From the IMG/VR virus record IMGVR_UViG_3300045996_001223, positions 1-47,942 of that record: a stretch of DNA of 47,942 nucleotides; one strand, 5' to 3'. Each line of letters starts with the position of its first letter. The first letter of the stretch is position 1. Shown here in pieces: positions 5,178 through 47,942 of the stretch. The notes under the pieces are model-generated. The model was not told where the DNA came from. It made no database searches and saw nothing but the letters and a program-made list of their open reading frames with translations. The position numbers were made by a program, and so were the translations under genes. Origin of the DNA: a virus.

Positions 5178-6017
5178 GTGCTGCAGTACAGCAAGCCACT
5201 CCCGATCCAGGAGATCAAGGCCGCCGGCGACGGGACGTGGTCGGTGAGCGGGTACGTCTCGACGTTCGGTAACGTCGACCGGACCGGCGACGTGATCCTG
5301 GCCGGCGCCTTCGACCGGGCGCTCGCCGACGGACGGCGGGTCAAGTTCCTCTACGCCCACGACCAGGCCCAGGTGCTGGGCGTGCCGATCGAATTGAAGG
5401 CCGACGACCACGGCCTGTTCGGGACATTCAAGATCAGCCGGACCCGACTGGGCGAGGACGTCCACACCCTGCTCAAAGACGGGGCGCTGGACTCGTTCTC
5501 GATCGGCTTCTTCATCGACGACCTCGACTTCGACCCGGAGTCGGGCACCCGCATCCTCAAGGACATCGACCTCCTCGAGGCGAGCGTGGTGGCCGTGCCG
5601 GCCAACCCCGAGGCGCTGGTCACCACCGTCAAGCAAGCGGCGAACGCCCGGCTGCTCCGCATGGACGAGCACGCCGAGCTGACCGTCTCCACCCTCAAGT
5701 CCTTCGTGGACCGCTGCTCGGATCTGGCGTCGCTGCGTGCCGGCGACGGCCGTTTCCCGGGCGCGGCGTTCTTCGAGCGTCTCAACGCGGTGCGTGCTGC
5801 CACGGACGAGCTGCTCTCCATCAAGGCCGCCCCGGCGGTCGTCGAGCCGCCTCCGAAACCGGAGCCGACCGGCGAACCCGACGAGGCCGCCCCACCGCCG
5901 GCCGACGACGCCGCGCGCGGCTACTCGACGCTCCTGGCGTTGAAGCGTGCCCGCCTTGCGCGTGCCGGCATCTTGGAGATGCCCTCCGATGAGCATGACC
6001 GCCGCCGATGCACGTAG
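5178..6017 (+). CDS. prohead maturation protease (HK97 family, U35)
   Basis: A 279-aa protein, typical for this family. Conserved blocks are VSGYVSTFGNVDRTGDVI, GAFDRAL, VKFLYAHDQAQVLGVP with the catalytic His, GALDSFSIGFF with the catalytic Ser, and LLEASVVAVPANPEA. It cleaves the delta domain of the capsid protein and itself during head maturation. The C-terminal third is a Pro/Ala-rich tail. The start is GTG 5178, without a strong ribosome site. It overlaps the capsid gene. No portal gene lies immediately upstream, where one is usually found; the glycosyltransferase operon is there instead. Confidence 0.9.
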   Translation: MLQYSKPLPIQEIKAAGDGTWSVSGYVSTFGNVDRTGDVILAGAFDRALADGRRVKFLYAHDQAQVLGVPIELKADDHGLFGTFKISRTRLGEDVHTLLKDGALDSFSIGFFIDDLDFDPESGTRILKDIDLLEASVVAVPANPEALVTTVKQAANARLLRMDEHAELTVSTLKSFVDRCSDLASLRAGDGRFPGAAFFERLNAVRAATDELLSIKAAPAVVEPPPKPEPTGEPDEAAPPPADDAARGYSTLLALKRARLARAGILEMPSDEHDRRRCT

Positions 6018-7305
6018 CGAGATCAAGAATCTCTTCGAGCAGTGCGAGCAGATCGAGCGCCGCTACCCCGACGGCCCGATCAGCGACGCCGAGGACGAGA
6101 AGCAGGTCAAGGCCCTGCTCTCGACCATCGACGACCTGGAGGCCAAGCTGGCCGGGCTCGAAGACACGGAAAGCCGCCGCCGTCGCATCCAGGCAGGCAT
6201 CGAGAAACATTCCCAGCCGGCCCGGAAGGTGATCCACCCGGGCGCGGCGATGGACGTCAAGGACCACGAGATCCTGTCGCCGGGCGAGCAGTTCATCCGG
6301 GGCTCCGAGTATCGCCAGCTCCAGCGCGACGGCGCGTTCAAGTCCGACCTGAACCGGAACCACTTCTCCGTCCAGCTCAAGGGCGGCACCAGCCTGATCG
6401 AGTGGAAGCGCCTGGTCGGCATGCAGTCGAAGGCGCTCCTGCGGGCCGGCAGCGACACCTCGGGCGGCTCGTTCGTCCTGCCGGACGATCGCCCGGGCCT
6501 GATCGACATCCGCCAGCGCGAGCTGACGCTGCTCGACCTGATCCCCCGCCTGACGACCACGTCTGACACAATCCAATACATCCGAGAGGACACCTATACG
6601 ATCAATGCGGCGATGGTCGCGGAGGCGTCGGCCACGACCGGCACCTCGGGCCTGAAGCCAGAGTCCGACCTGGCCTACAGCACCCAGACGGCGACCGTCC
6701 GGACCCTGGCGCACTGGATCCCGGTCACCAACCGGATGCTCGACGACGCGCCGGCGATGCGCGGGATCATCGACTCTCGCCTGCTGCTGGGCCTCGACAT
6801 CAAGCTCGAGGATCAGGTGCTGACCGGCAACGGGACCGGCGAGAACTTCACCGGCATCCTGAACTCCGGCATCCAGTCCCAGGCGCTCGGGTCCGACAAC
6901 GTGGTGGACGCCATCTTCAAGGCCCGCACCAAGGTCCGGGTCACCGGCCACGGCCGTCCGACCGCCGTCGTGCTCCACCCGAACGACTTCCAGGCCGTGC
7001 GCCTGATGCGCGAGAACCTCGCCTCGGCCACCCTCGGGAACTACCTGATGGGGCCGCCGAACGAGGCCGGCCCGACCACCATCTTCGGCATCCCGGTGGT
7101 GGAGTCCGAGGGCATCACCGAGAACACGGGACTCGTCGGCGACTTCTCGATGGGCGCCTCGCTCTTCGACCGCGAAGAGGGCGCCATTCGAGTGGGCACG
7201 ATCGACGACCAGTTCGTGCGCAACATGCAGACGATCCTTGCAGAGATGAGAGCGGCCCTCGTCGTGTGGAGGCCGACCATGTTCTGCCAGGTCACGGGCA
7301 TCTGA
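5989..7305 (+). CDS. major capsid protein (HK97 fold)
   Basis: From ATG 5989 (ATG 5995 is equally possible) the product is 438 aa. Residues 1-70 form a charged coiled coil (EIKNLFEQCEQIERRY, DDLEAKLAGLED), the delta/scaffold domain normally removed by the protease. The mature shell follows, with GGSFVLPDD, EASATTGTSGLKPESDL, LAHWIPVTNRMLDDAP, DQVLTGNGTGENFTGIL, and PTAVVLHPNDFQAVRL. It ends in VVWRPTMFCQVTG, the usual HK97 capsid ending. It directly follows its protease. Confidence 0.93.
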   Translation: MSMTAADARSEIKNLFEQCEQIERRYPDGPISDAEDEKQVKALLSTIDDLEAKLAGLEDTESRRRRIQAGIEKHSQPARKVIHPGAAMDVKDHEILSPGEQFIRGSEYRQLQRDGAFKSDLNRNHFSVQLKGGTSLIEWKRLVGMQSKALLRAGSDTSGGSFVLPDDRPGLIDIRQRELTLLDLIPRLTTTSDTIQYIREDTYTINAAMVAEASATTGTSGLKPESDLAYSTQTATVRTLAHWIPVTNRMLDDAPAMRGIIDSRLLLGLDIKLEDQVLTGNGTGENFTGILNSGIQSQALGSDNVVDAIFKARTKVRVTGHGRPTAVVLHPNDFQAVRLMRENLASATLGNYLMGPPNEAGPTTIFGIPVVESEGITENTGLVGDFSMGASLFDREEGAIRVGTIDDQFVRNMQTILAEMRAALVVWRPTMFCQVTGI

Positions 7306-7323
7306 CAGGGCGCAAGTAGCTAG

Positions 7324-7644
7324 ATGCCACGGTACCGCGTGCTCCGCGACTTCGGCTCCCACCTCGGCAACCACTATCGGGGCGAGCAGCTCGCGCTCCC
7401 CGACGGCGACTTGCCGCGCGGGTTCGCCGGCTTCGTGGAGCTAGTTTCCCCGCCCCAGTCCGAGACGAAGGACGTCCGCCCGGAAGCCGGCGATCCTCCC
7501 GCGCCGGCCCAGTCGGCGGCCGATCCTTCCCCACCGGCCGCCGACGACGCCGCCCCGCCCGAGCCTGATGTGCCGCATACCCCGGCCGATCAGGCTCGGG
7601 CGGGGTACAGCGACAAGATGGTCCGTCCGAGGAAGCGGCCGTGA
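7324..7644 (+). CDS. hypothetical head-region protein
   Basis: A 106-aa protein between capsid and connector. The first 40 residues look folded (RYRVLRDFGSHLGNHYRGEQ); the remainder is a Pro/Ala/Asp-rich low-complexity tail ending in KMVRPRKRP. Small proteins of this kind are common at this position in HK97-like head operons. Possible roles are accessory head or decoration protein, but nothing in the sequence proves either. Confidence 0.55.
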   Translation: MPRYRVLRDFGSHLGNHYRGEQLALPDGDLPRGFAGFVELVSPPQSETKDVRPEAGDPPAPAQSAADPSPPAADDAAPPEPDVPHTPADQARAGYSDKMVRPRKRP

Positions 7645-8288
7645 CGCTGTATACGGACAGTAGCAAGATCGCCGCCTACCTCGGCGCCACCTTCACCGCC
7701 GCCCAGCAGACCCAGGCCGGCCTCGTCGCGGCCGGCGCGTCCAACTTCATCGAGCAGGCGCTCGACCGCTCCTGGCTCGGCTACACCAGCGTGCCGCTGA
7801 GCGTCACCGACGAGCGGCACACCGTCTCCGGCAACCGCATCTGGCTGCTGCACCCACCGGTCGCGACCGTGACCTCGGTCAGCAGCCGCCTCCGGTACGC
7901 CGGCGCCACCATCTACACCCTCGACCAGGACTACCAGTACGAACTGATCGAGCCGGCCATCGGCGAGATCGTGTTCTCCCCGACCTACGAGGGCCAGCGG
8001 ATCGAGGTCGACTACACCTCGACCGAGCCGACCCCGGCCATCATCGCCCAGTTCGCGACCGAGCTTGCGGCCGGCATGCTGGCGCTCTCGCTGGCCGGCG
8101 CCGGCGCCGCCGCGGCCGCCGCGGCCGGCATCAAGCGGTACACGCTCTGGGGCGGCGACCTGTCCGTCGAGTACGCGACCCCCAGCACCTCGCAGTCGAG
8201 CGGCACCACCGCCTCCAGCTCGACCAGGCTGCCGGCCCTCTGGGAGCAGATCGAGGCGATGTTCTCCCGCAAGCTGTCGGTGGCCTGA
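7641..8288 (+). CDS. head-tail connector protein (gp6-like)
   Basis: A 215-aa product from GTG 7641, overlapping the previous stop. It begins with DSSKIAAYLGATFTAAQ and has a long helix, then RIWLLHPPVATVTSV and EIVFSPTYEGQRIEVDYTS. This resembles the DNA-packaging/connector adaptors that form a ring below the portal. An Ala-rich helix (residues about 148-165) and a Ser/Thr linker follow. Its place after the capsid gene and before the closure protein supports the assignment. Confidence 0.65.
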   Translation: MTLYTDSSKIAAYLGATFTAAQQTQAGLVAAGASNFIEQALDRSWLGYTSVPLSVTDERHTVSGNRIWLLHPPVATVTSVSSRLRYAGATIYTLDQDYQYELIEPAIGEIVFSPTYEGQRIEVDYTSTEPTPAIIAQFATELAAGMLALSLAGAGAAAAAAAGIKRYTLWGGDLSVEYATPSTSQSSGTTASSSTRLPALWEQIEAMFSRKLSVA

Positions 8289-8629
8289 TGGACTTCGAGA
8301 CGATGTTCGCCGACACCTTCACCGAGACGGTCACGGTCAGAGAGCCGACCGGCACGGGCACCTACGGCGAGCCGACCTTCACGGGCGCGGCCACCCTGAC
8401 CCTGCCGGCCTGGATCAGTCGCAAGCCCCGCGAGGTCCGGACTCACACCGGCGAGGAGCGGGTCTCGTCGGCCGAGATCTCCATCGGCCACCCCTCGGCC
8501 GGCGTCGCCGTGCCAGATATCTCACCGGAAGCCGAGCTGACGCTCCCCGGCGGACAGAAGCCGGCCATCCTCGCCGTCGCCTCGCTGATCGACCCCGACG
8601 GCGATCGGCACGTGAGGATTTACGTCTGA
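8288..8629 (+). CDS. head closure (stopper) protein
   Basis: A 113-aa all-beta protein starting with FETMFADTFTETVTVREPTGTG and a YGEPTFTGAATLTLPAWIS segment typical of small head-completion proteins of the SPP1 gp16/HK97 gp7 kind. It overlaps both neighbours by one base (TGATG). Assignment rests mainly on order: connector, closure, gp10-like, terminator. Confidence 0.6.
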   Translation: MDFETMFADTFTETVTVREPTGTGTYGEPTFTGAATLTLPAWISRKPREVRTHTGEERVSSAEISIGHPSAGVAVPDISPEAELTLPGGQKPAILAVASLIDPDGDRHVRIYV

Positions 8630-9027
8630 TGGCCGGCGGCATCACCGTCCGACCCGTCGGCCTCGACCGCCTGACCGCCCGCCTGACCGGGCTCGCCTCC
8701 ACCCTGCCCGACGCCGTCGCGGCCGAGTTGTACCGCGACATGGTCGGGGTGATGTTTGAGTCGCAGAAGATCGTGCCCTACGAGGAGGGCGACCTCCACG
8801 ACTCCGGCGAGACCGACCGCCCCGAGATCAATGGCGGCCGGGTCAGCGTGACGCTGCACTACGGCGGCGGGAACGTCGACTACGCCCTGGTCCAGCACGA
8901 GGACCTGACCCTCAACCACCCGAACGGCGGCGAGGCCAAGTTCCTCGAGTCGGCGCTGCACCAGTGGGCCGACGACGGCCCGAAGGCCGTGGCAAACCGG
9001 GCGCTCCGGCGGGCGGCACGTCAATGA
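8629..9027 (+). CDS. HK97 gp10-like tail completion / minor virion protein
   Basis: A 132-aa protein from ATG 8629. It has an N-terminal helix (LDRLTARLTGLASTLPDAVA), then VPYEEGDLHDSGETDRP and a beta hairpin. The segment YALVQHEDLTLNHPNGGEAKFLESAL is the typical gp10 family block, the equivalent of YAxxVExG...KPFLxxAL. These proteins sit at the head-tail joint and help attach tails. Confidence 0.65.
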   Translation: MAGGITVRPVGLDRLTARLTGLASTLPDAVAAELYRDMVGVMFESQKIVPYEEGDLHDSGETDRPEINGGRVSVTLHYGGGNVDYALVQHEDLTLNHPNGGEAKFLESALHQWADDGPKAVANRALRRAARQ

Positions 9028-9224
9028 GCGGGCCTCGGAGCGCAGGGTTTCCCGCGATGCAGCCACGCCTCCGTCTGTGCGTCGGTCGACGGTCGGGCCG
9101 TCGAATACACGAGGTAGTGGCGCCGGATGCCGCAGTCGAGGCATCGCAGGCTCCCCGGGTTGAACCAGAGATGCGGCCCGATCTGGCGGGCCTTGTCCTC
9201 CGAGAGCCGTTCGATCTTCAGCAT
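9021..9224 (-). CDS. antisense small zinc-finger protein (moron-like)
   Basis: A 67-aa product on the strand opposite to the surrounding tail operon, filling a gap of about 210 bases. It has CLDCGIRRHYLVYSTARP and a second Cys near the end (HRGKPC). A -10-like TACACT (revcomp of 9231-9236) lies six bases before the ATG, which would give a leaderless message. The gene overlaps the end of the gp10-like gene by seven bases in convergent orientation. Function unknown; phage morons often alter the host. Confidence 0.5.
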   Translation of the reverse strand: MLKIERLSEDKARQIGPHLWFNPGSLRCLDCGIRRHYLVYSTARPSTDAQTEAWLHRGKPCAPRPAH

Positions 9225-9241
9225 GCCGTGAGTGTACCGCG

Positions 9242-9631
9242 ATGAGCATGCTGACCGACATCCACAGCTACCTGACGGCCAACGGCCAGTCGGCCAACCT
9301 CTACATCGGCGCGCTCCCGGACAGCCCCGACGTGGTGGTCGGGCTGTTCCAGTATCAGGGCCGCCCGCCGGCCGAGGTCCTCGAGGTGGCGGGCATCCGC
9401 CGGGAGCGGCCCGGGCTCCAGGTCCAGGTCCGGTCGGCCCCGAACACCTACGCCGATGCCGAGGCCCGCGCCTACGCCATCTACGACCTCTTGCAGGTCG
9501 CCAACGCCACGCTCGGGTCGGGCTTCTACCAGGAGGTCCGCCCGCTGGGTTCGCCGTTCCCGCTCGGTCGTGATCTGAACCGACGGGTCGTCATCGCGGC
9601 CAACTATCTGGTCAGCCGCGACTGGGTTTAG
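9242..9631 (+). CDS. tail terminator / minor capsid protein
   Basis: A 129-aa product. It shows IHSYLTANGQSANLYIGALPDSPDVVVGL, LFQYQGRPPAEV, then ERPGLQVQVRSAPNTYADAEARAYAIYDLL. This is the pattern of the phage minor-capsid/tail-terminator family that caps the tube. Its place before the tube gene fits tail terminators. Confidence 0.7.
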   Translation: MSMLTDIHSYLTANGQSANLYIGALPDSPDVVVGLFQYQGRPPAEVLEVAGIRRERPGLQVQVRSAPNTYADAEARAYAIYDLLQVANATLGSGFYQEVRPLGSPFPLGRDLNRRVVIAANYLVSRDWV

Positions 9632-9897: not shown

Positions 9898-10341
9898 ATG
9901 ACTGCCGCCGCGATCCTGGGCAAGGGCGCCATCCTGCAGATGTCGGATGCGACCCTGACCGCGTTCTCGTCGATCAGCGAATTGCGCTCGGTGCCGTTCC
10001 CGCAGCTGCAGGGCGACCGCATCGACGTCACCACCCACGACTCGCCGGGCTTCACCCGCCAGTTCGTCTCCGGCCTGGACGACCTGCCGGCCGTGACCTT
10101 CGAGATCAACTGGCTGCCGGCCAACGCCACCCACGACGAGACCACCGGCCTGCTCTCGGTCCAGCGCAGCAAGGCCGTCCGGGTCTTCAAGGTCACCCTG
10201 CCGACGGCGGTCTCGCCGACCAAGGTCTTCACCTTCTCGGCCCAGGTGCTCCAGTTCAACCCGACCGTGCCGATCGACAACGTGATGCAGGCGTCGATCC
10301 AGTTGCAGCCGTCGGCCGCCCCGACCATCGCATCCAGTTAA
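9898..10341 (+). CDS. major tail (tube) protein
   Basis: A 147-aa beta-rich protein with a good ribosome site (GGAGG at about 9883). Motifs are ISELRSVPFPQLQGDRIDVT, THDSPGFTRQFVSGLDDLP, FEINWLPAN and the end VLQFNPTVPIDNVMQASIQL, the usual gpV/tube layout where the last strand carries the IDNVMxASIxL motif. It polymerises as the tail tube around the tape measure. It shows no similarity to the tube protein of the second module. Confidence 0.82.
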   Translation: MTAAAILGKGAILQMSDATLTAFSSISELRSVPFPQLQGDRIDVTTHDSPGFTRQFVSGLDDLPAVTFEINWLPANATHDETTGLLSVQRSKAVRVFKVTLPTAVSPTKVFTFSAQVLQFNPTVPIDNVMQASIQLQPSAAPTIASS

Positions 10342-10350: not shown

Positions 10351-10785
10351 ATGCCCACCGCAACCGACACCAACGGCGCCGCCCCGGCCGCTGAGGCCCG
10401 GGCGGCGACCCCGACCCCGATCAGCCGCCCCCGCATCGTCAAGCCCGTCCCGATCATGCTCGATCGCGAGCGGCACATGGTCATGGACTTCGTCGCGATG
10501 GACGCCTTCGAGGACGTGACCGGCCTCTCCGCCTGGGGGCGGGAAGCCTGGGACGGCCGGCCGCGCAACGTGGTCGCGCTGATCTGGGCAGCCCTCCTGC
10601 ACGAGGATCCGGACCTCGACCTCGATGCCTTCAAGCGGCTGCCGTGCATGACGCTCGCGAACATGGGCTACCTGACCGAGCGGCTGGGCGAATTGTGGGG
10701 CGAGGCGTTCCCCGACGCCGACGACGCATCCGCGAGCGAGGCGGCTGGTGAATCGGACCCAAACCCGCGCCGCCGCGCTGGCTAG
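10351..10785 (+). CDS. tail assembly chaperone G-like (zero-frame product)
   Basis: A 144-aa protein preceded by AAGGAGG. The first 40 residues are an Ala/Pro linker, then PVPIMLDRERHMVMDFVAMDAFEDVTGLS and DGRPRNVVALIWAALLHEDP, DAFKRLPCMTLANMGYLTERLGE. This is the usual helical G-type chaperone found between tube and tape measure genes. A slippery CCCAAAC lies near its end (10758-10764), so a fraction of ribosomes should make the longer GT protein. Confidence 0.75.
   Translation: MPTATDTNGAAPAAEARAATPTPISRPRIVKPVPIMLDRERHMVMDFVAMDAFEDVTGLSAWGREAWDGRPRNVVALIWAALLHEDPDLDLDAFKRLPCMTLANMGYLTERLGELWGEAFPDADDASASEAAGESDPNPRRRAG
10758..10764 (+). promoter_or_regulatory. -1 ribosomal frameshift heptamer CCCAAAC
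   Basis: In the G frame the codons are GAC CCA AAC CCG, so the sequence is C CCA AAC, an exact X XXY YYZ slip site. The -1 frame is open from here to 11126 and encodes a T-like domain. Downstream GC-rich sequence (CCGCGCCGCCGCGCTGGC) could pause the ribosome. Confidence 0.75.
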
Positions 10786-11126
10786 ACCTCTGGTCGTTCG
10801 CCAGGATCGAGCTCGGCCTCTCGTTGGCCGAGTTCTGGTCGTCGACGCCCAGGAGCTACCGGGCGCTGGCCGACCGGGTGCTCGAGCGCGAGCGACGAGC
10901 GGACGCCCGCTTCGGGACGGTCGCGGCGGTCGCGGCCAACCTGATGGGCGGCAAGCGCGGCGGCGGGCAGTTCTCGCCGGCCGACTTCTTCCCGTCGCTC
11001 GCAGAGGCGCCGGCGGCCGGGACGAGGCCGACCGGCCCGTCCGACGAGCAGATCCTGGCCGGCCTGACGGGCTGGGCGGCGCTCTGCGGCACGCCGGTCT
11101 TGGCGCAGGGCCGAGCGCGCCCGTAA
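10764..11126 (+). CDS. tail assembly chaperone T extension (made by -1 frameshift)
   Basis: This frame has no good start of its own (the first ATG-type start, at 10824, lies inside the domain) but continues the G frame after a -1 slip at CCCAAAC. The 120 residues read PAPPRWLDLWSFARIELGLS, LAEFWSSTPRSYRALADR, ERRADARFGTVAAVAANL and FSPADFFPSL, a classical T-type sequence that recruits tape measure and tube. The GT fusion would be about 258 aa. It ends 31 bases before the tape measure gene. Confidence 0.75.
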   Translation, partial: PAPPRWLDLWSFARIELGLSLAEFWSSTPRSYRALADRVLERERRADARFGTVAAVAANLMGGKRGGGQFSPADFFPSLAEAPAAGTRPTGPSDEQILAGLTGWAALCGTPVLAQGRARP

Positions 11127-11157: not shown

Positions 11158-14100
11158 ATGACGTCGCCGCTCGGATCGTTCTCGTTCACCGTCGACGCCG
11201 AGGTCGGGCCGGCCCAGCGCAAGCTGCAGCAGTTCGTCCAGCAGGCCCAGCAGGCCGGCCGGGCCGTCGAGCAGGCGTTCGGCGGCCGGGGCGAGGCGAT
11301 CCTCCTGAAGGCGGACGGCACGCCGCTGATCCGCGAGGCCCGGCGGGCCGAGGAGGCGATCGAGAAGGTCGGCCGGGCCGCGAAGCAGGTCGCCGACCGC
11401 CCGGTCACCATGACCGTCCGGGCCAACCTGAACGAGGCCGAGCGGAGCCTCGACCGCCTGACGGCGAGCGCCCGAGCGCTCGGGCAGGCCCGCTTCAACC
11501 TGGCCGTCCGGGCCGACGGCTCCAGGGAGGCCGAGCAGGCGATCGTCCGCCTGCAGGCCGCGCTGCGGGCAGCCAGGGCCGGCGAGACGATCAACGTCAA
11601 CGTCCAGGCGGCATCGGTCGGTCAAGCCGACGCCGCCGTGCGCCGGCTGACCGCCGACATCAACGCCGCCAAGGCGGCCGGCGCTCGGGTCGCCGTCAAC
11701 GTCCAGACCAACGCCCAGCAGGGCGGCTTCCTGCGGGAGGTCGGGCGGGGCTTCCTGCAGCAGGCCACGCCGGGCCTGGCGACCGGCGCCGCCGCCGCTG
11801 CTGGCGTGGTCGCGGCCCAGGCCGTTGCCAGGCTCGCTCAGGCGATGCAGGAGGGCATCGCCGCCGGCATCCAGTACAACGCCTCGCTGGAGACTTCGTC
11901 GGTCCAGATGCGGGTGTTCCTGGGGTCGGCCGAGGCCTCGGCCCGGGCGATGCAGCGATTCCAGCGGATCGCCGAAGAGACGCCGTTCTCGCTCCGCCAG
12001 ATCAACGAGGCCGCCGCCTCGTTCTCCCAGGTCTCGGGCGGCAATATCCAGCGCCTGGAGCGGCTCGTCGTGCTGGCGACCCAGCTCGCCGCCGTCAACC
12101 CCAGCGAGGCGACCGGCGGCGGGCTGGGCGGCGCGACGGTCGCCCTCAGAGAGGCGCTCTCCGGCGACTTCACCTCGATCGTCGAGCGGTTCCGCGTCTC
12201 GCGGACCGAGATCAATCGCCTCCGCGAGCTCGGCCTGACCGGCGAGGCGCTGGCCGTCGCGCTGGTCAAGGCGGCCGGTGGCGGCAAGCAGCTCTCCGAC
12301 GCGCTTGCCAACACGTTCGAGTCCCGTGCCGCCAAGGCGGCCGAGATCCTGGAGCGACTGGCCGGGGTGGCGACGAGGCCGATCTTTGCCGTGCTCTCGG
12401 CCGGGCTCGAGGGGTTTGCCGCCAACGTCGAGAAGGTCATCGGTCCGGTCGAACGCCTCGTCGTTGCGCTTGACCGGCTGCAAGGCGGCCGGGGCGCGGC
12501 GGCCGCCACGGCGCTGGTCAGCCCGGCCAGCTTCCTGGCCGCCGCCGCCGTCGCCGCCCCACCAGCGCGCCCGGAGCCGCCCATCAGCCCGGTCGAGTCC
12601 GCCCGACAGGCCAGGATCGGGGCCGCCCAGCAGGAGGCCGACCGGGCCGAGCGGGCACTCCGCCAGCAGGAGCAGGTGGTCAAGGACATCGAGAAGGGGC
12701 TGGAGCAGGTCGCCGCCGCCGCCCGCCTGGTCACCGAGGAGTACGAGGCCCAGCTCCGCCCGCTCGAGGCCCAGCAGCGCGCGCTCGACGCCCAGATCGC
12801 CGCCAACCAGGCCGCCGGCCGCGAGATCGCCGCCCGCGCCCAGGCCGCCGAGGGGCCGGTCGAGACCCGCGCCCAGACGGCCGGCACCCAGGTCATCCTC
12901 GACCACGAGCGCGAGCTGCTGGAGATCCGCCACCGCCGGGCCGAGATCTCGGAGCAGATCGCCGAGGCCGAGCAGGCCGCCGCCAACCGCGCCGCCGAGG
13001 CCCAGATCCGGGCCGCCGAACGGGGACTCCAGGCCGCGCGAGACCGCGCCCAGGCCGAGCGGGACGCCCGCCAGGAGGTGCTGGAGGGGGTCCGCGAGGA
13101 GATCAGGGCACGGCAAGAGGCCCGGCAGGCCGCCCTGGAGGGCATGCGCGCCTACATCCAGGCCATCCAGGAGGCCCGTCGCGAGGCGCTCGACGCCATC
13201 CGCGAGGAGATCGCCGCCCGCCAGGAGGCCCGTCGCGAGGCCATCGACGGGCTGCGCGAGCAGATCGACGAGCGCCGCCGGGCCTACGACCTGGAGCGCG
13301 AGAACCGCGACGAGGCCCGGCAGGCCCAGCAGGAGGCGTTCGCCGAGCAGGAGCGGCAGGCCGAGCGGGCGCACACGATCTCGCAGGACCGCTACCGCGA
13401 CCAGATCGACGCCCTCCGCGCCCAGGCCGACGCCGTCGAGGAGCGGATCGAGCGGGAGAGCGGGGCGCAGCGTGAGCTGGCCGCCTTCGAGCGCGCCGAG
13501 GCCGCACGCCGGCGTGCCCAGAGCGTCGCCTCGGCCGAGCGGAACGTGCTGCAGGCCCGGACGGGCCGGGAGCGCGCCGACGCCCTCCAGCGCCTCGCCG
13601 AGATCCGGGCCGAGGCGACGGCCGACGCCCGTCGGGAAGAGCTGCAGGCCCGGATCGAGCGCCAGCGGGAAGAGGGCGACCGCCGCCGCGAGGCGATCCA
13701 GGCGAAGATCGCCGAGCTGGAGCGCAAGGCCCGAGCCGAGGACCGCGCCTACCAGCGCGACCGCGACGCGCGGCGCGAGGCGTTCGAGGCCCAGCAACGG
13801 GCGCAAGCCGCCGCCGACCGTGCCGAGGAGAAGGCCGAGCGCGAACGCCGCCGGGCGGAAGACGCCCAGGTCCGGGCGCTCGAGAAGGCCGACCGCGAGG
13901 CGACCAAGCGCGAGCAGGCCGAGATCAAGGCGCTCGAGAAGGCCGACCGCGAGCAGACCAAGGCCGAGAACGCGGCCATCCGCGCGGCGGAAGCCTCGGC
14001 GCGGGCCGAGGAGCGGGCCGATCAGGCCCGGCTGCGCGAGGAGGAGCGGGCCGCGCGCGAGGCCGATCGCGCCGCCGATCGGGCGCTCCGCGAGCAGGAG

Positions 14101-15987: not shown

Positions 15988-16329
15988 TTGGCTAGCTACA
16001 CGTTCGACAACATCACCTGCGCGCCCAGGATCGACCAGATGGTCGGCCAGGTCAACCCTGGCGAGTCGCTCTACTCGGTCCGCAACATCCCGTACTCGTC
16101 GAGCTCCGTGCTCGATCTCGGCGGCCTCGGCGTCCGGCGCTACGGCCCGATCGAGGTCAAGGTGGACCCGGACGACGCCGCCGACTTCGAGGCGCTCCTG
16201 CAGGAGTCGGCCGAACTGGTCGTCAACGGCACGACCTACGCCCGGGCCACGCTGGTCGAGCTGTCGAACAAGCAGGTCACGGCCCGCAACGACTGGGTCT
16301 TCTACACCGCCCAGTGGGTCGTGGGGTAG
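15988..16329 (+). CDS. baseplate/distal tail-region protein
   Basis: I prefer TTG 15988, which has GGGAGG at 15977-15982, over the in-frame ATG at 15961 that has none. The product is 113 aa: SYTFDNITCAPRIDQMVGQ, SLYSVRNIPYSSSSVLDLGG and RYGPIEVKVDPDDAADFEAL, then a Trp/Tyr-rich beta end (DWVFYTAQWVVG). This resembles small tail-tip proteins lying after tape measures, but I cannot name a family. It is three bases before the hub gene. Confidence 0.6.
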   Translation: MASYTFDNITCAPRIDQMVGQVNPGESLYSVRNIPYSSSSVLDLGGLGVRRYGPIEVKVDPDDAADFEALLQESAELVVNGTTYARATLVELSNKQVTARNDWVFYTAQWVVG

Positions 16330-16332
16330 CCG

Positions 16333-18675: not shown

Positions 18676-18685
18676 GGACAGCATC

Positions 18686-31497: not shown

Positions 31498-31680
31498 TTA
31501 CGTTATGTACGGCCAGATCACTTTGAGCAGCACCAGCACTATGAGCAAGATCGCAACGAGCCATACGATCCAGACCAGCTCAGCCGGCACGGGTAGCTTG
31601 CTCGTGATGAGCCAGGCAATCACGTAGATGACCGCACAGACGATGATGGCGATGACGAGCGACAGTATCAACGCTTCCAC
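31498..31680 (-). CDS. holin-like two-helix membrane protein
   Basis: I chose GTG 31680, which has GGAGGG upstream. The 60-aa product has two hydrophobic helices: VEALILSLVIAIIVCAVIYV and LVWIVWLVAILLIVLVLLKV, joined by WLITSKLPVPAE. A short two-helix layout next to a lysin is typical of small phage holins. It lies directly downstream of the module 2 lysin. Confidence 0.65.
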   Translation of the reverse strand: MEALILSLVIAIIVCAVIYVIAWLITSKLPVPAELVWIVWLVAILLIVLVLLKVIWPYIT

Positions 31681-34477: not shown

Positions 34478-34489
34478 CGTGACTGCTCC

Positions 34490-36094: not shown

Positions 36095-36095
36095 C

Positions 36096-37001: not shown

Positions 37002-37003
37002 GG

Positions 37004-37213
37004 CTAGGCTTCTTTCGCCTTGAGCTTGACCGGCTCGTCCGTCTTGGCGCGCACGCGGTCAAGCTCAGTCAACGCCGCGTCGCGCTCGGCCCGGTAGCGC
37101 TCGGCCAGCGTCCGGAACTCGGCGGCCTGTCGGGCCATCTCGGCGTAACCGATCATGACCTCGTGCCACTGGCCGCTGACCGTCGCCGTGAGCATCGGAA
37201 TCTGATCGTCCAT
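37004..37213 (-). CDS. small helical protein
   Basis: A 69-aa product from ATG 37213. It starts DDQIPMLTATVSGQWHEVMI and continues as a long Glu/Arg helix (AEFRTLAERYRAERDAALTE) ending KAKEA. Such short coiled coils next to fibres may be fibre-assembly or trimerising factors. No family recognised. Confidence 0.5.
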   Translation of the reverse strand: MDDQIPMLTATVSGQWHEVMIGYAEMARQAAEFRTLAERYRAERDAALTELDRVRAKTDEPVKLKAKEA

Positions 37214-37224
37214 ACATCCACTCC

Positions 37225-38979
37225 TTAGAGGTATTCGAGCAGCACGCCCAGGAATGCGGCGTCGGCGGCGTAGGTATCCGAGCCGCTGGCGGCATCGCGG
37301 CGCACCTTGATCGGCAGATAGCCGCCGCGAGCGGTCGGCGTCACTGACCTGACGGTCGCCGTCGTGTCGAGCGCGGTCACGGACGTGGTCGCCGCGACCG
37401 TCAGCGAGTCGCTCCCGCCGCCGACCGTTGCGCCGTCCACGAGTCGATCGGTGGCGCTGAACACCTGCCAGACGACATTGCCGGCGCCGGTCGTGGTCGC
37501 GGCCCACAGGATCTTGAAGGCGATGGCGCCGGCCGTCCAGTCGGACGGTACTTCGATGGACGCCCCGACCGCCTCGGCCGAGGACGCATCCAGCAACCAG
37601 GCCGGCGCGAGTGCGTTGACGACGCTCTGCGCCGGCGAGCCTTCCGCGATCGGCCCGAACGCGGAAGCCGAGATCACCCGCGACTTGACGCCGGATGAGA
37701 ACGTCGCGACCTTCGTCCGGGCGCCGCCGCCGTTGACGTAGAGATGCAGCGCCGAGACGCCGGTGCCGGCGTTGATCCGTTCGCCCTCGAACTCGGCCAG
37801 CAGATTCGTGGTGTCCACGGAGGAATGGCGACTGCCGGTCGCCATCAGATACCGGACCTTCGAGCCGTTCTGGTCCGTCTCGGCGCGGCCCAACAGCGCG
37901 TTGAACGTGTCGCTCGGGTTCGTGATCTCGTGCCCGGCCGGCAGGCTCGCGATCGTCTCGTTGTCGGCGACGTTGCCGTAGCCGGTCCAGAGCGTGCCAT
38001 CCTTGTGCAGCGCGAACACGTCGCGCTGGCCGCCCTCGGCGGACGTGACGCCGACCGCGATGAACCACTGTCCATACCCGTTGGACACGGTCGTGCCGAA
38101 TGAGCGCGGGTAAATCTGCCCCTGCGACCGCATCCCACCGGTCAAGTGGGCCTCGGCCCGGATCACCGCGAGCTGTGCGCCATCGGCAACGTTGGTCGGG
38201 CTGTTCCCGTCGATGGCGCCTTCCGCACGGCCAAGCACGAGGTTGGCCGGATTCCCGATGTTATAGAGCTGCATGCTGCGGCCATAGACGTAACTCGGCG
38301 ACGGCGCGCCGGCATTCAACGGGTCGGCCGGATTGGTTGCTCGTACGGCGAAGTCCGGGAACGATGCTGAATACGTCGGATTCCCGAACCGTAGCTGTTT
38401 TTCGGTCGGGGTGAACCTGGACGCATCGGCGAAGTAACTGTCTTTGCCGAGCCAGAGATTGCCGCCCGTGTCGAACGTGACGATGTTGGCGTTCCCGCCG
38501 CCGGGCTTGACCCAGGTCGCGCTAGCATTGTTGGCGAGCGGGAACGGGTTGGTGATGTTGGCCGGCGGATTCGTCCAGGTCCCGCCGGTGATGTCCGGCG
38601 CCGTCAGCTCGGCGTTGGTGTAGACGTTGCCGTCGATCGTCAGGGTGTCCGGATCGCTATAGAGCACCTGATAGGACGGGTCGATCCGGGCGCCGGCCGA
38701 GGCGAGTGTCCTGGCCGCGTAGGCGCCGGCCGGCGAGAACAGGTCATAGGCGCCGCGATTCGTAACATCAACCCAGAACTCGACCATGCCGCCGGCGTCG
38801 GTCGTCAGGACGGCGCCGAGATCGGTCATGCTGGTTTCGGTCGCGTAGATCGGGAAACTGACCAGCGTCGTTGTGCCCGGCAGATAGACCCGGATCTCCG
38901 ACGACGCGACCGGCACGACCCTGGACGTCAGCCCGTCCGTCTCGACCGCGAACACCCACTCACGGAGCACTGCGCGCAT
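37225..38979 (-). CDS. tail fibre protein between tape measure and Dit
   Basis: A 584-aa product. The N-terminal part (SSEIRVYLPGTTTLVSFPIY, GGMVEFWVDVTNRGAYDLFS) is typical of phage fibre attachment domains with an ATxTDxxG layout. A long beta region follows (NLWLGKDSYFADASRFTPTE, GQRDVFALHKDGTLW). The final 125 residues form a separate beta-sandwich (WLLDASSAEAVGASIEVPSD, GYLPIKVRRDAASGSDTYAA). Its position before the Dit gene is unusual for a fibre. It overlaps the tape measure by one base. Confidence 0.68.
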   Translation of the reverse strand: MRAVLREWVFAVETDGLTSRVVPVASSEIRVYLPGTTTLVSFPIYATETSMTDLGAVLTTDAGGMVEFWVDVTNRGAYDLFSPAGAYAARTLASAGARIDPSYQVLYSDPDTLTIDGNVYTNAELTAPDITGGTWTNPPANITNPFPLANNASATWVKPGGGNANIVTFDTGGNLWLGKDSYFADASRFTPTEKQLRFGNPTYSASFPDFAVRATNPADPLNAGAPSPSYVYGRSMQLYNIGNPANLVLGRAEGAIDGNSPTNVADGAQLAVIRAEAHLTGGMRSQGQIYPRSFGTTVSNGYGQWFIAVGVTSAEGGQRDVFALHKDGTLWTGYGNVADNETIASLPAGHEITNPSDTFNALLGRAETDQNGSKVRYLMATGSRHSSVDTTNLLAEFEGERINAGTGVSALHLYVNGGGARTKVATFSSGVKSRVISASAFGPIAEGSPAQSVVNALAPAWLLDASSAEAVGASIEVPSDWTAGAIAFKILWAATTTGAGNVVWQVFSATDRLVDGATVGGGSDSLTVAATTSVTALDTTATVRSVTPTARGGYLPIKVRRDAASGSDTYAADAAFLGVLLEYL

Positions 38980-43444: not shown

Positions 43445-43822
43445 ATGAAGCTCATCATCGTCGCCATCATGCTCGCGTTCGCGTTCGTCATCACGCCGTC
43501 ACCCGCCGCCGCGCAGGGGTGCGCATTCCCGCAGGCTGACATGGCCGGGCGCTACGCCGGGGCGCCGGTACTGATGGCCGTGGACGTCACGGACTGCGGC
43601 GGCATCACCGTCGCCTGGTCGAACCCGTACGGCTGGCATCGGGCGCACTACGCCACGACCGAGCGGGTACCTGGCGGCGGCCTGAGCGCCGTTGGCTTCG
43701 TGGCTGATCCTCAGGTCGGCTGGCTCGACAACACCTATGAGATCCTGGTGAAACCCGCCGAACCGGGCTACGTGCAACTGTTCACCGCACGCGGCCACTA
43801 CCGCCTCCAGAAGGTCAGCTAG
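43445..43822 (+). CDS. secreted moron protein inside the tail module
   Basis: A 125-aa product, transcribed against module 2 between tape measure and chaperone genes. It has a signal peptide (KLIIVAIMLAFAFVITPSPA, cut near AAAQ). The mature part has two Cys (QGCAF, TDCGG) and YGWHRAHYATTERVPGGGLS with strands, plus a basic end (ARGHYRLQKVS). It ends one base before the stop of the T domain. Expression from its own promoter during lysogeny and action outside the membrane, such as blocking DNA entry, is a guess from context. Confidence 0.65.
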   Translation: MKLIIVAIMLAFAFVITPSPAAAQGCAFPQADMAGRYAGAPVLMAVDVTDCGGITVAWSNPYGWHRAHYATTERVPGGGLSAVGFVADPQVGWLDNTYEILVKPAEPGYVQLFTARGHYRLQKVS

Positions 43823-43823
43823 C

Positions 43824-44132
43824 CTAGCGACGACCGCCGGCCGCGCGCTGACGCTGCTCGCGCGCGCGTTTGCGGGCCACTTCGTTCTCCGCCCCGACCT
43901 CAGCATTCGTTATGACCCGGTCCCAGACAGCCCAGCATATCCAACGCCGTGCGTCGTCGTAGGCGGCTGGCTCGAAGGTGCCGCTGGCCGGATTGAATCG
44001 ATGGGCGTCGGTGAAGTGGAAGGGGTGCTGTCCGTAGCGTTGGGCACGCTTGACGACGCTCCAATAATCCGGGACTCGATCGGCGGAGAGACGGCCCCCC
44101 GAGACGAGATAGGCTTGAAGGGCCGTCGAGAG
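43824..44132 (-). CDS. tail assembly chaperone T extension, module 2 (-1 frameshift)
   Basis: After the slip at 44138-44132 the -1 frame stays open to the TAG at 43826-43824. It encodes LSTALQAYLVSGGRLSADRV, PDYWSVVKRAQRYGQHPFHF, TDAHRFNPASGTFEPAAYDD, ARRWICWAVWDRVITNAEVG and an Arg-rich helix. It has no start codon of its own at the beginning and would be missed by gene finders. The GT fusion would be about 226 aa. Confidence 0.7.
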   Translation of the reverse strand, partial: LSTALQAYLVSGGRLSADRVPDYWSVVKRAQRYGQHPFHFTDAHRFNPASGTFEPAAYDDARRWICWAVWDRVITNAEVGAENEVARKRAREQRQRAAGGRR

Positions 44133-44503
44133 TTTGGGTCGCTGTTGACATCCCGGACGATCGCGCCGAGAATCGTCGCCGGCAGGCCCGGCGGCAGATC
44201 CACCAGCGTGTCAAACGTAATCGGGACGCTGACGCCGCCGTCCGTCAGATCCCAGCCGCGCTCATCCTCCGGCACGTCCGGACCGGAGGGCAGCAACACC
44301 CGCCGCACTTCGTCGATGATCGCCTTGACGTTCGGGAATCGGGTCGCGCCGTCGAGTGAGGGAACGCCAACCATAACCTCGCCCATCGCGATCAGCGCGC
44401 GGTTGTTGAGATCGGCGCGGTAGCGGCAGAGGATCGTATGCCCCTGCCACTCCACATCGACCTCGCCGTAGCCGCGCTCGATACTCTGTAGGTCGAATGG
44501 CAT
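43910..44503 (-). CDS. tail assembly chaperone G-like, module 2
   Basis: From ATG 44503, which overlaps the tube gene stop. The 197-aa product starts PFDLQSIERGYGEVDVEWQG, then RYRADLNNRALIAMGEVMVG, WDLTDGGVSVPITFDTLVDL and PPGLPATILGAIVRDVNSDP; after CCCAAAC it continues into a low-complexity Ser/Pro tail. Only the first 124 residues look folded, so the zero-frame tail is probably read less meaningfully than the -1 frame. Role: keeps the tape measure soluble with the GT partner. Confidence 0.7.
   Translation of the reverse strand: MPFDLQSIERGYGEVDVEWQGHTILCRYRADLNNRALIAMGEVMVGVPSLDGATRFPNVKAIIDEVRRVLLPSGPDVPEDERGWDLTDGGVSVPITFDTLVDLPPGLPATILGAIVRDVNSDPNSRRPFKPISSRGAVSPPIESRIIGASSSVPNATDSTPSTSPTPIDSIRPAAPSSQPPTTTHGVGYAGLSGTGS
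44132..44138 (-). promoter_or_regulatory. -1 ribosomal frameshift heptamer CCCAAAC, module 2
   Basis: On the minus strand the codons are GAC CCA AAC TCT, giving C CCA AAC exactly as in module 1. The -1 frame then encodes a convincing T-type domain of 102 residues. Confidence 0.75.
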
Positions 44504-45822
44504 CAGAGACTCCTGAGTGCGTTCTTGAGATAGACTCGTGTCCATGCGGACGAGGTCGCGTCGTAGACCAGCCGCCCGCCGAACGGCAAGGTGCTGGCGC
44601 CGTCGATGTCGCCGGCCGAGGGCGCCGCGTTGATCGACATGACGCCGTCGATCCGCAGCTCGTAGGCGTGCCCGGCCTCGATGCTGTTGGCCGCCTTCGC
44701 CGCCCGGATACGCACGTACTTCTTGGTGCCGGCCCGCATGTCGGTGATGAGCGCGCGGCTGACGCTGTCGTTGCCAAGCTCGATGCTCATGGTCGTGTCG
44801 GGCCGGTTCGGGATCGCCTCCTTGTAGCCGGCGAGCGCCGAATTGAGCACCCAGAGCGGGCTATACATGCTGCTAACGGACCACTCGGCCGAGAAATCGC
44901 TGAGCAGCTTGGTCGTCCCGAGGTTGGCCCAGGAGTTGTCCAGGTAGACGTCGATCTCGCCGGCCAGGACCGGCACTAGCGGGATGTCGGTTGATCCCCC
45001 GGCGCTCGTGACCGTGACTGACGCCGTGCCGCCGCCGGTGACCGACGCGGTGCTGATCGTGACCGGGCCGACGTTGGTATTCGCCAGGTCTTCGGTAAAC
45101 GTGATCGTGATGGCGCCGGTGCTGAGCGGCCCGCCGGCCACCGTGCCGTTGCCGGCCCCGACCGTCGAGAGCGCCTCGAAGGCGAGTTCAATCGTGGCGG
45201 CGTTGGCGTTGTAGGCGATGCCGGCCGTGGTCTGGCCACCGAACGAGAGGGTGAACGTGCCGCCGCTCCAGGTGCCGGACGGCGTGATCGTGACGACCTC
45301 GTTGACGTCGATGCTGGCGCTGTAGTTCATCTGCGAGCCGAAGCCGGCGCCGCTCATGGTCTGGGCGCTGGTCCGGTTGAATGCCAGACTCAGGTCAGTC
45401 AGTACACAGCCGTTCGCTTCCTCGGCGTTACCGGCCACGCCCAGGAGCGACGGGGTGCCCGTCCGCGCGGAGAACGTGGTTCGCGGCAGCGCGGACGGCC
45501 CTGGAAACCACGTCCACTCGCCGGCGGTCGTGCCAGCGTTGACGATCGTAGCCGGCCCGAACAGGAACGTGAACAGGTAGGCGAGGCTGTTGTAATCCGG
45601 GTACGCCCCGTCCCCGATCTCGAAGGTAGACCAGTTCTGGCGCAGCGCATCGCCGGTGCCGACACGAATACCCATCGGGTCGATGGGGTCGAACTCGGCC
45701 GCTTCTGAGAGTTTGAATCCGACGCTCAGCAGACGGGTACGGATACCGGTCGCTGGTGCAACACCTTCGGTGGTTTCGACGCCAATCAGGCTGCTCTCGT
45801 CAATAGTGCCTCGGACCGGCAT
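44503..45822 (-). CDS. major tail (tube) protein with inserted Ig-like domain
   Basis: A 439-aa product, longer than usual. Residues 1-170 and 285-439 are tube-like (SLIGVETTEGVAPATGIRTR, SAEWSVSSMYSPLWVLNSAL, DTTMSIELGNDSVSRALITD, KYVRIRAAKAANSIEAG). Between them, residues about 172-278 form a repeat-type beta domain (NEVVTITPSGTWSGGTFTLS, AGIAYNANAATIELAFEAL, ITITFTEDLANTNVGPVTIS) of the kind found decorating tail tubes. A hairpin just upstream may hide its ribosome site. Confidence 0.78.
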   Translation of the reverse strand: MPVRGTIDESSLIGVETTEGVAPATGIRTRLLSVGFKLSEAAEFDPIDPMGIRVGTGDALRQNWSTFEIGDGAYPDYNSLAYLFTFLFGPATIVNAGTTAGEWTWFPGPSALPRTTFSARTGTPSLLGVAGNAEEANGCVLTDLSLAFNRTSAQTMSGAGFGSQMNYSASIDVNEVVTITPSGTWSGGTFTLSFGGQTTAGIAYNANAATIELAFEALSTVGAGNGTVAGGPLSTGAITITFTEDLANTNVGPVTISTASVTGGGTASVTVTSAGGSTDIPLVPVLAGEIDVYLDNSWANLGTTKLLSDFSAEWSVSSMYSPLWVLNSALAGYKEAIPNRPDTTMSIELGNDSVSRALITDMRAGTKKYVRIRAAKAANSIEAGHAYELRIDGVMSINAAPSAGDIDGASTLPFGGRLVYDATSSAWTRVYLKNALRSL

Positions 45823-45830
45823 GGCTCGAA

Positions 45831-45846
45831 CTCCGTTGCTACGGAG
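45831..45846 (-). promoter_or_regulatory. hairpin sequestering the tube-gene ribosome site
   Basis: CTCCGT (45831-45836) and ACGGAG (45841-45846) pair around a four-base loop. On the minus-strand message the second arm holds the GGAG ribosome site, eight bases before ATG 45822. A translation-limiting role is inferred. Confidence 0.35.
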
Positions 45847-45915
45847 CGAGCCGGCGACGCCGGGAGGCTCTCAGACTACGTCGGCGGGCCTGCTAGGCAG
45901 GGCGGCCAGTGTGTC

Positions 45916-46125
45916 CTAGTTGGCGGAAACGCGATCGGGCGACCGCATGCCGTCCCTTGCAGTATACGCTACGTCGTTCGTCTTGCGGTGCATCGCCTCA
46001 CAGGTCTTGCAGCCGGCACAGCGACGACAGGACGGGTCGATACCGGCATACTTCTCGATCAGTCCAACCAGCCCGACGAGATGCCGGCGCGCCTCGGTCA
46101 GGAACTCCCGATCTTCTGGACTCAT
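45916..46125 (-). CDS. small Cys/His-rich protein
   Basis: A 69-aa product between terminator and tube genes. The helix SPEDREFLTEARRHLVGLVG is followed by DPSCRRCAGCKTCEAMHRKT, a C-x2-C-x2-C-x2-C-x3-H cluster. Its ATG overlaps the previous stop at 46122-46125. The 90-base gap to the tube gene contains inverted repeats. Not recognised. Confidence 0.55.
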   Translation of the reverse strand: MSPEDREFLTEARRHLVGLVGLIEKYAGIDPSCRRCAGCKTCEAMHRKTNDVAYTARDGMRSPDRVSAN

Positions 46126-46553
46126 GTGGCTCGCGCCTGACTGCGGTACAGCATGACCCGGTGCAGCCGCTGCCCATCCACGTCATCCTCTACCAGATCC
46201 GTCGTATCCAACAGCCGGAACTTACCGATCTCGGCCCCGCCGGTGGTGCCACGATAGCTCTGGAGCAGCGTATCGACGCGGTCGCTGATCTGACGCAGGA
46301 TGCCGTGACCCTGGCCGACCGTGACCCAGATCGAGACGCGCAAGATGGCATCTTCCCAAACCCGGACGGTGTCGAGCGTTTCGAGCGGTACGTTGCTCTG
46401 AATGCCGAGCGAGACATAGGGGAAGCCGGGCAGGCCGGTGCCCACCGGGACGATCGGCTCCCGCCCGATCCGAGCGCCGACCAGCGCAGAGAGCGTGCTG
46501 TCACCGCTCATTCTCTGGTAGGCCAGATCGACCATCCGGTCAGCGGCGATCAT
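46122..46553 (-). CDS. tail terminator-like protein (DUF3168 type)
   Basis: From ATG 46553, with AGAGGAG five bases upstream; the longer frame beyond it is not supported. The 143-aa product has RMSGDSTLSALVGARIGREP, GFPYVSLGIQSNVPLETLDT, then ILRVSIWVTVGQGHGILRQI and VDTLLQSYRG, the usual layout of DUF3168 tail-completion proteins. It caps the tube; its place upstream of the tube gene fits. Confidence 0.72.
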   Translation of the reverse strand: MIAADRMVDLAYQRMSGDSTLSALVGARIGREPIVPVGTGLPGFPYVSLGIQSNVPLETLDTVRVWEDAILRVSIWVTVGQGHGILRQISDRVDTLLQSYRGTTGGAEIGKFRLLDTTDLVEDDVDGQRLHRVMLYRSQARAT

Positions 46554-46698
46554 CGGACTCCTCTTGACGGTCCTCGACCGTGAACGGCCCGAACACGGTG
46601 TAATCGACAGCGCCGCATTCGTCGCAGGCACCGAATGGCCCCAGTTCGGGATGCCGCATCGAAGTGGTGTAGCGCCAGATATGCTCGTGCTCACTCAT
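46540..46698 (-). CDS. 52-aa metal-site mini-protein
   Basis: From ATG 46698, coupled to the gp10-like stop. The sequence SEHEHIWRYTTSMRHPELGP, then FGACDECGAVDYTVFGPFTV, shows H-x-H, H and C-x2-C ligands, a compact zinc site. It overlaps the terminator gene by 14 bases. Function unknown. Confidence 0.5.
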   Translation of the reverse strand: MSEHEHIWRYTTSMRHPELGPFGACDECGAVDYTVFGPFTVEDRQEESDDRR

Positions 46699-47111
46699 CG
46701 TGGCAGCCTCCCGCCGGTCACGCGACGGATCGTGCCACGGCCGGGCGACACCGTCGCGCTGCCGGCCCGCCGACCGGTGCCGGCCAGGATCGCCTTCCAC
46801 GCCGCCAGATACACCGGTCGATTGGCTTCGAGCGCCGGCCAGAAAAACGGCTGTGCACCCATCCGAGACGTGCCGTACTCGACATAGACGGCGTACGGCA
46901 CGCCGGCGACCACGGTTGAGGATGAACCGGCGCCCTCGACACGGATCGAGTCGCGCAGGGCGCCGGTCCGAACCGGCGCACGCTGCGCGGCATCGGCGGC
47001 GATCTTGCGCGCCGTCTCCGCCACCAGCGCCGCGCCGGCCGACTTCATCTCGCCGGCCAGATTCGGCAGACGATTGAAGACTGTACGGACGGTAAACGGG
47101 TTGGCAGCCAC
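46695..47111 (-). CDS. HK97 gp10-like tail completion protein, module 2
   Basis: From GTG 47111. The 138-aa product has GEMKSAGAALVAETARKIAA and the clear family block DAAQRAPVRTGALRDSIRVE, VPYAVYVEYGTSRMGAQPFF and WPALEANRP. This APVxTGxLRxSI...YAxxVExGTxxxxxxPFxxPA signature is textbook gp10. It is a different lineage from the module 1 counterpart. Confidence 0.85.
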   Translation of the reverse strand: MAANPFTVRTVFNRLPNLAGEMKSAGAALVAETARKIAADAAQRAPVRTGALRDSIRVEGAGSSSTVVAGVPYAVYVEYGTSRMGAQPFFWPALEANRPVYLAAWKAILAGTGRRAGSATVSPGRGTIRRVTGGRLPR

Positions 47112-47112
47112 G

Positions 47113-47394
47113 CTACTTCTTGGCCTCAGCCGGCGCCGGCTTCTCGTCGTCCTTCGGCGCCGCCCGCTCGGCTCGCTTCTCCTCCTGTTCCTTTGTGTAC
47201 GCCGCCTTGGTTTTCGGCCCGTCGTACTCACTCAGGTCTTCGTAGCGGTCACCCAGCCGGTAGCCGGCCTCGGCCGCCGTCTGGAACTCGTGCTCGCCCT
47301 TGCGAAACGTCTTCTTGTGGAAAAAGTCCCGCTCAGTCATCGCCAGCTCGACGGGCTGGCCGTCCTTGTACAAGCGGATCAACTGCTCCGGCAT
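47113..47394 (-). CDS. hypothetical head-tail region protein
   Basis: A 93-aa product. The N-terminal half (PEQLIRLYKDGQPVELAMTE, HEFQTAAEAGYRLGDRYEDL) is a small folded domain; the rest is Lys/Glu-rich with a PAPAEAKK end. It lies one gene before gp10. It resembles in layout (short domain plus charged tail) the 7324 protein of module 1. Role unknown. Confidence 0.55.
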   Translation of the reverse strand: MPEQLIRLYKDGQPVELAMTERDFFHKKTFRKGEHEFQTAAEAGYRLGDRYEDLSEYDGPKTKAAYTKEQEEKRAERAAPKDDEKPAPAEAKK

Positions 47395-47405
47395 GTCATA
47401 CCTCC

Positions 47406-47810
47406 CTAACTGATCTTGACCGCGACGATTTCGACCACGAGCTGATCCGTGACCGGCCCGTGTGATTCGGCCGGCTCGAACGTGCCGGCGGCTTCCCCGG
47501 TGATGACGATACGATCTGACGGACGGAGGTCGATGGCCCCGCCCGGCCAGCGCGTCGCCAGTGCTGACAGCATCACGTTGAACGTCTGGACTGACCCGTA
47601 CCGCTCGGCAATGGCCCGCTCACGCGGCGTCAGCCCGGACTTATCGACCCGACAGGGGATGCCGGAGGCGTAGGTAGCCGTCGTCTCTGACCAGCCGCCG
47701 GTCGTCGCGTCGAGCGTGCGCGTGACGCGGGTGATGGCGGCGACATCCGGCAGTGCCATCTCGATCGTGCCGGCCAGGGCTTGCGCCGCGCCGGCGGAGA
47801 GAATGCCCAT
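47406..47810 (-). CDS. head closure (stopper) protein, module 2
   Basis: A 134-aa product starting at ATG 47810. It reads ALPDVAAITRVTRTLDATTG, GWSETTATYASGIPCRVDKS, GLTPRERAIAERYGSVQTFN and WPGGAIDLRPSDRIVITGEA. The TxxxDxTGGxxETxxTYxxxxPCRV core is usual for head-tail joining proteins (DUF6093/H-T join type). Order closure, gp10, terminator, tube supports it. Confidence 0.7.
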   Translation of the reverse strand: MGILSAGAAQALAGTIEMALPDVAAITRVTRTLDATTGGWSETTATYASGIPCRVDKSGLTPRERAIAERYGSVQTFNVMLSALATRWPGGAIDLRPSDRIVITGEAAGTFEPAESHGPVTDQLVVEIVAVKIS

Positions 47811-47941
47811 CAGTCAATCATCTCCGGCATCTGCCCGGCTCGCCGCCTGGGCACAGGCGTGGACACCACCGGCTCCGTCAGCACCGCTGCGCGTGGGGGG
47901 CTGGCACGCGGTCGGCGCCTGGGAGCCGGTGGTGGGTCAGT
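47810..47941 (-). CDS. partial upstream structural gene (3' end only)
   Basis: One frame is open from the window edge to the TGA at 47812-47810, which overlaps the next start as TGATG. The visible 43 residues (TDPPPAPRRRPRASPPRAAV, LTEPVVSTPVPRRRAGQMPE) are a Pro/Arg-rich tail with a repeated PRRRPRA/PRRRAGQ unit. By order it would be the connector or capsid-side gene; nothing in this tail proves it. Confidence 0.45.
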   Translation of the reverse strand, partial: TDPPPAPRRRPRASPPRAAVLTEPVVSTPVPRRRAGQMPEMID

Positions 47942-47942
47942 A

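Follow-up and report, generated by a model that had tools for sequence, protein, structure and literature searches.

We propose that IMG/VR record IMGVR_UViG_3300045996_001223, a linear contig of 47,942 nt without end repeats that was analysed over its whole length (positions 1-47,942; hereafter, the window), is made up of parts of two distinct siphophage genomes, each ~42-44 kb, that have been joined; we put the probability of this reading at about three in four. That two different phages meet in this DNA had been suggested by a first-pass annotation, and the suggestion is borne out by a difference in codon usage, by unrelated tails, and by single-module relatives on both sides. Positions 1 to ~31.4 kb would be a run of one phage, L, with its pre-capsid genes, head, tail, lysin, leftward operon, divergent promoter and first three early genes, and ~31.4 to 47.9 kb would come, in inverted orientation, from the tail-lysis end of a cousin, phage R, and stop short of its connector and capsid genes. 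Both would be ordinary siphoviruses, each with a late operon, packaging, tail assembly around one tape measure, and lysis by a lysin of a shared type. The cause of the join is probably, at slightly better than even odds, a library or assembly chimera; next comes, albeit as an unlikely cause, a molecule that is really joined, by recombination or otherwise, as distinct from a planned two-virion genome. On our preferred reading, this entry in a public virus collection is a composite. Chimeric contigs arise in virome assemblies when similar viruses coexist, and in simulations usually make up <5% of contigs of at least 10 kb (PMC5610896). Among MDA chimeras, 85% are inverted (PMC1855051).

Gene content of the two regions

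Gene calling and comparison with PHROGs identified two convergent siphovirus late/tail regions, one on the + strand (5.2-28.3 kb) and the other on the - strand (47.8-31.7 kb; Table 1). The left part carries protease, capsid, neck, tube, tape measure and lysin genes in the order of an HK97-type siphovirus, and the right part carries terminator, tube, tape measure, Dit and lysin genes of such a phage. These regions had been described as two complete virion modules, with a full set of genes on both strands. There are indeed two convergent siphovirus gene sets, but they are not complete: PF05065 has a single match, the major capsid gene on the left; no portal (PF04860) was found in the window and no terminase among the window proteins scanned against PHROGs; and the right set is cut by the contig end, just past the head closure gene at 47,810, which leaves the right connector, capsid, protease, portal and terminase outside the window. 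Hence, the window does not hold two complete virion gene sets, and the duplicated part is the tail and lysis region rather than the whole virion. The right phage itself may carry the genes that lie outside, and the left portal and terminase would be located upstream of the contig start, by analogy with two relatives described below (G013 and G010).

Table 1. Features of the 47,942-nt window, with the basis for each assignment
Feature	Position	Strand	Basis or remark
Left pre-capsid genes	1-5044	+	PHROGs/Pfam; between portal and capsid in relatives
First left gene	1-414	+	58% over 119 aa to G013 1936-2289, directly upstream of the G013 glycosyltransferase
Left glycosyltransferases	407-1279, 2624-3784	+	PHROGs/Pfam
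HTH/sigma-region-4 protein	1464-2627	+	HTH_3 domain joined to sigma-70 region 4 domain; upstream of capsid
Left head maturation protease	5178-6017	+	phrog_80, E 6e-49
Left HK97-type major capsid protein	5989-7305	+	phrog_10, E 2e-61; PF05065
Left head-tail adaptor, head closure, gp10/Neck1, tail terminator	7641-9631	+	phrog_442, 3881, 5, 2595
Left tail tube	9898-10341	+	phrog_158, E 3e-17; 91% to L003
Left tail chaperone region	10351-11126	+	phrog_2115
Left tape measure, 1560 aa	11158-15840	+	phrog_1686/167
Left tail tip, hub-size and fibre-like proteins	15988-22990	+	Position
Left lysin	26771-28339	+	Glycosyl hydrolase core and endolysin domain; phrog_181, E 1e-20; PF11790 below cut-off
Leftward operon, about eight small genes	28336-30796	-	ORFs
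Divergent promoter region	30797-30931		Mirrored GTGTGTATACTG sites at 30823-30834 (-) and 30906-30917 (+)
Rightward early operon	30932-31406	+	RHH-like gene 30932-31138; tiny genes 31138-31254, 31254-31406
Right small membrane protein, downstream of right lysin	31498-31680	-	42% over 40 aa to L017 gene 9
Right lysin	31691-33259	-	phrog_181, E 2e-18
Right tail tip and fibres	33587-38979	-	33587-34477; minor tail 34490-36094; Dit 36096-37001; 37225-38979; phrog_17342, 538, 33/106
Right tape measure, 1472 aa	38979-43397	-	phrog_1533, E 3e-93
Right tail chaperone-like gene	43910-44503	-	Position; start MPFDLQSIERGYG of the same kind as the pre-tape-measure gene in G013, G010 and L018
Right tube	44503-45822	-	PHROGs (right tube/terminator/Neck1 set: phrog_10909, 176, 5)
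Right terminator	46122-46553	-	PHROGs
Right Neck1/gp10	46695-47111	-	PHROGs
Right gene between Neck1 and head closure	47113-47394	-	Position
Right head closure	47406-47810	-	Last right gene before contig end

Several tail genes had no match: the left hub-size protein (16333-18675) in PHROGs, phages or Pfam, and the right tail gene at 37225-38979 and chaperone-like gene in PHROGs. Among the left fibre-like proteins, 19711-21039 contains an F5/8 type C domain and 18686-19714 contains BNR-like repeats that score below the cut-off. A 54-bp tandem repeat lies within the left tape measure gene at 13828-13952, in a stretch of strong AT skew. The left late region also includes a gene for a secreted-looking protein of 495 aa with a PTPTP linker (24494-25981), the codon usage of which is right-like; PTPTP-rich secreted proteins may hint at a host among the Chloroflexota. 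On the right, a small protein with a signal-peptide-like start is encoded between the chaperone-like gene and the tape measure gene, on the strand opposite to the tail operon (43445-43822); its homologues in G010 and G013 are encoded shortly downstream of the lysin.

Single-module relatives

Relatives were gathered from IMG/VR by capsid and tape-measure matches, and fall into two kinds of phage contig, both with a single module. The six related contigs of 38-44 kb have exactly one portal each and one capsid each. The two relatives that look circular contain one complete module apiece: G013 (IMGVR_UViG_3300037070_001233; 43.9 kb), which has an exact 126-bp end overlap, and G007 (41.7 kb), both ends of which lie inside its capsid gene. 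The gene order in G013 is terminase, portal, glycosyltransferases, protease, capsid, connector, right-type neck, tube, tape measure and lysin, with one each of terminase and portal. From the glycosyltransferases and protease onwards, this order is also that of the window, which G013 resembles in capsid (48%), connector (40%), tube (40%), tape measure (43%) and lysin (55-57%). Unlike the window, G013 has a single virion module together with terminase, portal and replication-side genes, and its tail tip resembles neither window module. Glycosyltransferase genes (407-3784 in the window) are conserved across the relatives in the interval from portal to capsid.

G010 (IMGVR_UViG_3300037119_000735; 41.8 kb) likewise has a right-type tail, and shares with the window the layout of lysin, leftward small genes, divergent promoter and ribbon-helix-helix (RHH)-like gene; it differs in having one module and an early operon that continues to terminase and portal, and its lysin matches only part of the window lysins. 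The closest left-type relative, L003 (IMGVR_UViG_3300003324_000501; 5.7 kb; capsid 84%, tube 91%, terminator 82%), differs from the window in being only a fragment. In L017 (IMGVR_UViG_3300037119_001823) and L018 (IMGVR_UViG_3300037119_001735), a left-type protease and capsid (49-50% identical to the left capsid) precede neck, tube and tape measure genes of the right type, and each of these contigs has one module; the neck-to-tube gene order of the right region (44503-47810) is common to L017, L018 and G010. Since L017 and L018 join a left-type head to a right-type tail, we infer that the left and right phages are cousins in one exchanging group, and sequence comparison indicates that both window modules come from one phage group that swaps tails on a shared backbone. 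A similar exchange has been described within one phage family, the Peduoviridae, in which a common head/backbone is combined with two unrelated tail modules spread among relatives; those phages are myoviruses, however, with one tail module per genome (PMC10612066). Our preferred reading also reveals an uncultured high-GC phage group in which the head backbone stays and whole tail modules are exchanged. Scans of viral contigs with the left lysin, right minor tail protein, lysin pair, spacer proteins and left hub gave no confirmed near relatives, and no uncut contig of phage L or R was found in them.

The first-pass annotation had offered as one possibility a tail-to-tail pair of prophages with shared, recombined ends. 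Such prophages would occupy a single host chromosome and either share the spacer or abut there. The convergent lysin ends are tidy, as suits such a pair, and there are integrases in the related left-type phages G002, G003 and G007 and a serine recombinase in G008. Nonetheless, the absence of an integrase between the two gene sets, already pointed out in the first-pass annotation, extends to the entire 47.9 kb, in which we found no tRNA, integrase or resolvase/recombinase and noticed no host gene among the called genes. Moreover, in G007 and G008, the two relatives in which the recombinase could be placed, it is at the terminase end and not the lysin end; prophages arranged lysin to lysin are therefore not predicted by the layout of the relatives. 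Neither recombinase family was found in G010 or G013, the nearest right-tail relatives, and the codon usage of the halves differs. We consider a prophage pair improbable. Two genome-contig scans, by capsid alignment and by lysin alignment, found no prophage.

Codon usage of the two halves

The best coarse cut of the window by leave-one-out codon usage, near 24 kb, gives a split of 0.060 log-odds per codon, and a cut at 30.5 kb gives 0.052; in eight relatives, the maximum over any cut is 0.007-0.018. GC3 is mostly near 0.93-0.96 in the left tail genes and near 0.85-0.88 on the right. The difference in codon usage argues both against a prophage pair and against a single genome with two virions. 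The halves of the window are colinear with separate single-module genomes and there is a compositional break between them, although the break is blurred over 24-31 kb rather than sharp at 31.4 kb: the gene at 24494-25981 is right-like, the left lysin gene is intermediate, and the spacer leans right-like. This blurred boundary would fit a left phage whose lysis end had come from a cousin of the right type. Tetranucleotide signatures differ between the halves no more than they vary inside single relatives.

Lysins, spacer and the putative junction

As the first-pass annotation had noticed, the tails are unlike but the lysins are alike: in a BLASTP comparison of left against right, the lysins are the only clear match (72-74% identical; 72% over 475 aa by BLASTP), with the next-best matches near E 0.02. 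The inverted homology comprises complementary arms of 792, 245 and 185 bp at 72-77%. Lysins that are 73% identical suggest that these phages have recombined or share hosts.

Between the lysins, where the first-pass annotation had seen a 3-kb bank of tiny genes, both strands carry small genes over ~3.3 kb, arranged about a single divergent promoter region (30.80-30.93 kb). The stop codon of the left lysin gene overlaps that of the small gene at 28336-28656 (-) in the sequence CTAG. Six peptide patterns from the leftward small-gene operon found no relatives in viral contigs. The divergent promoter region can be aligned with that of G010, where it has the same position and a TATACT-type sequence; divergent operator repeats, which could have tied the spacer to one side, were not found elsewhere in the window. 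The RHH-like protein is 34% identical to the product of a G010 gene at 12728, with SAALRYAV common to both, and a predicted two-helix model has a mean pLDDT of 75; it has no Pfam match. A 23-nt ribosome-binding repeat occurs three times (31116-31138, 31232-31254 and 31384-31406) and combines the stop codon of a tiny gene with the ribosome-binding site for the gene that follows. The third copy, unlike the first two, has no start codon after it. On the - strand, a terminator hairpin at 31447-31414, with a tail to 31404, lies within 8 bp of the end of the early operon and fits the lysin operon of the right phage; the number of terminator hairpins in the seam region is not above that in shuffles.

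In G010, the lysin is followed by leftward small genes, the divergent promoter, the RHH-like gene, and then a long early operon that reaches to the terminase; the window follows this layout only as far as 31,406. There, at the junction, the early operon of the left phage appears to be cut short after three small genes. Because of this colinearity, we place the most likely phage-phage junction at ~31,404-31,497. The CTAG at the lysin end and the divergent promoter were also considered as breakpoints, since both leave genes intact, but colinearity with G010 favours 31.4 kb.

A different interpretation builds on the other possibility raised in the first-pass annotation, that one genome encodes two alternative virions. 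A single siphophage genome would then carry two convergent, unrelated tail/lysis modules around a repressor-controlled divergent promoter, and would make either a single head that can receive one of two tails or two alternative virions. The symmetric divergent promoter with its mirrored sites, the repressor-like gene, the late operons converging on the spacer, and the two lysin ends that reach it without a broken gene would all suit such an arrangement. If it were true, host range or particle type could be switched by transcription rather than by recombination. To our knowledge, two complete tails encoded by one genome would be new for siphoviruses. Literature searches found no precedent for phages with two tail modules; one match to "two tape measure" actually concerns tape measure chaperones in phage Shady. 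We found no positive support for two alternative virions. All six relatives are single-portal and single-capsid, the same cassette in G010 is simply the start of a normal early operon, and the early operon on the left seems to be cut short at the junction. We recognised no replication gene in the window, and such a genome would have to exceed 60 kb by a wide margin, versus 42-44 kb in the relatives. We regard this interpretation as very unlikely.

Our preferred reading, that pieces of two genomes have been joined, has to accommodate the fact that both candidate seams are tidy, with the double stop codon of CTAG at one and, at the other, positions 31,404-31,413 falling precisely in the gap that separates a stop codon from a terminator tail. 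This counts somewhat against a random break, since breakage at random would be expected to interrupt a gene more often. The blurred codon-usage boundary, the likeness of the lysins and the failure to find an uncut contig of L or R also count against our preferred reading. Tidy seams would suit one particular form of joined genomes, namely a recombinant or defective phage that really exists and carries a second, inverted late segment from a co-infecting cousin; the inverted orientation of the 73% identical lysins and the clear exchange of tail modules among these phages point the same way. Nonetheless, the homology ends at the lysin genes, with the seam not inside them, and the joining would have cost the left phage its early operon. 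We consider a real recombinant doubtful. Tail-to-tail prophages are less likely still, and a two-virion phage is the least likely of these readings.
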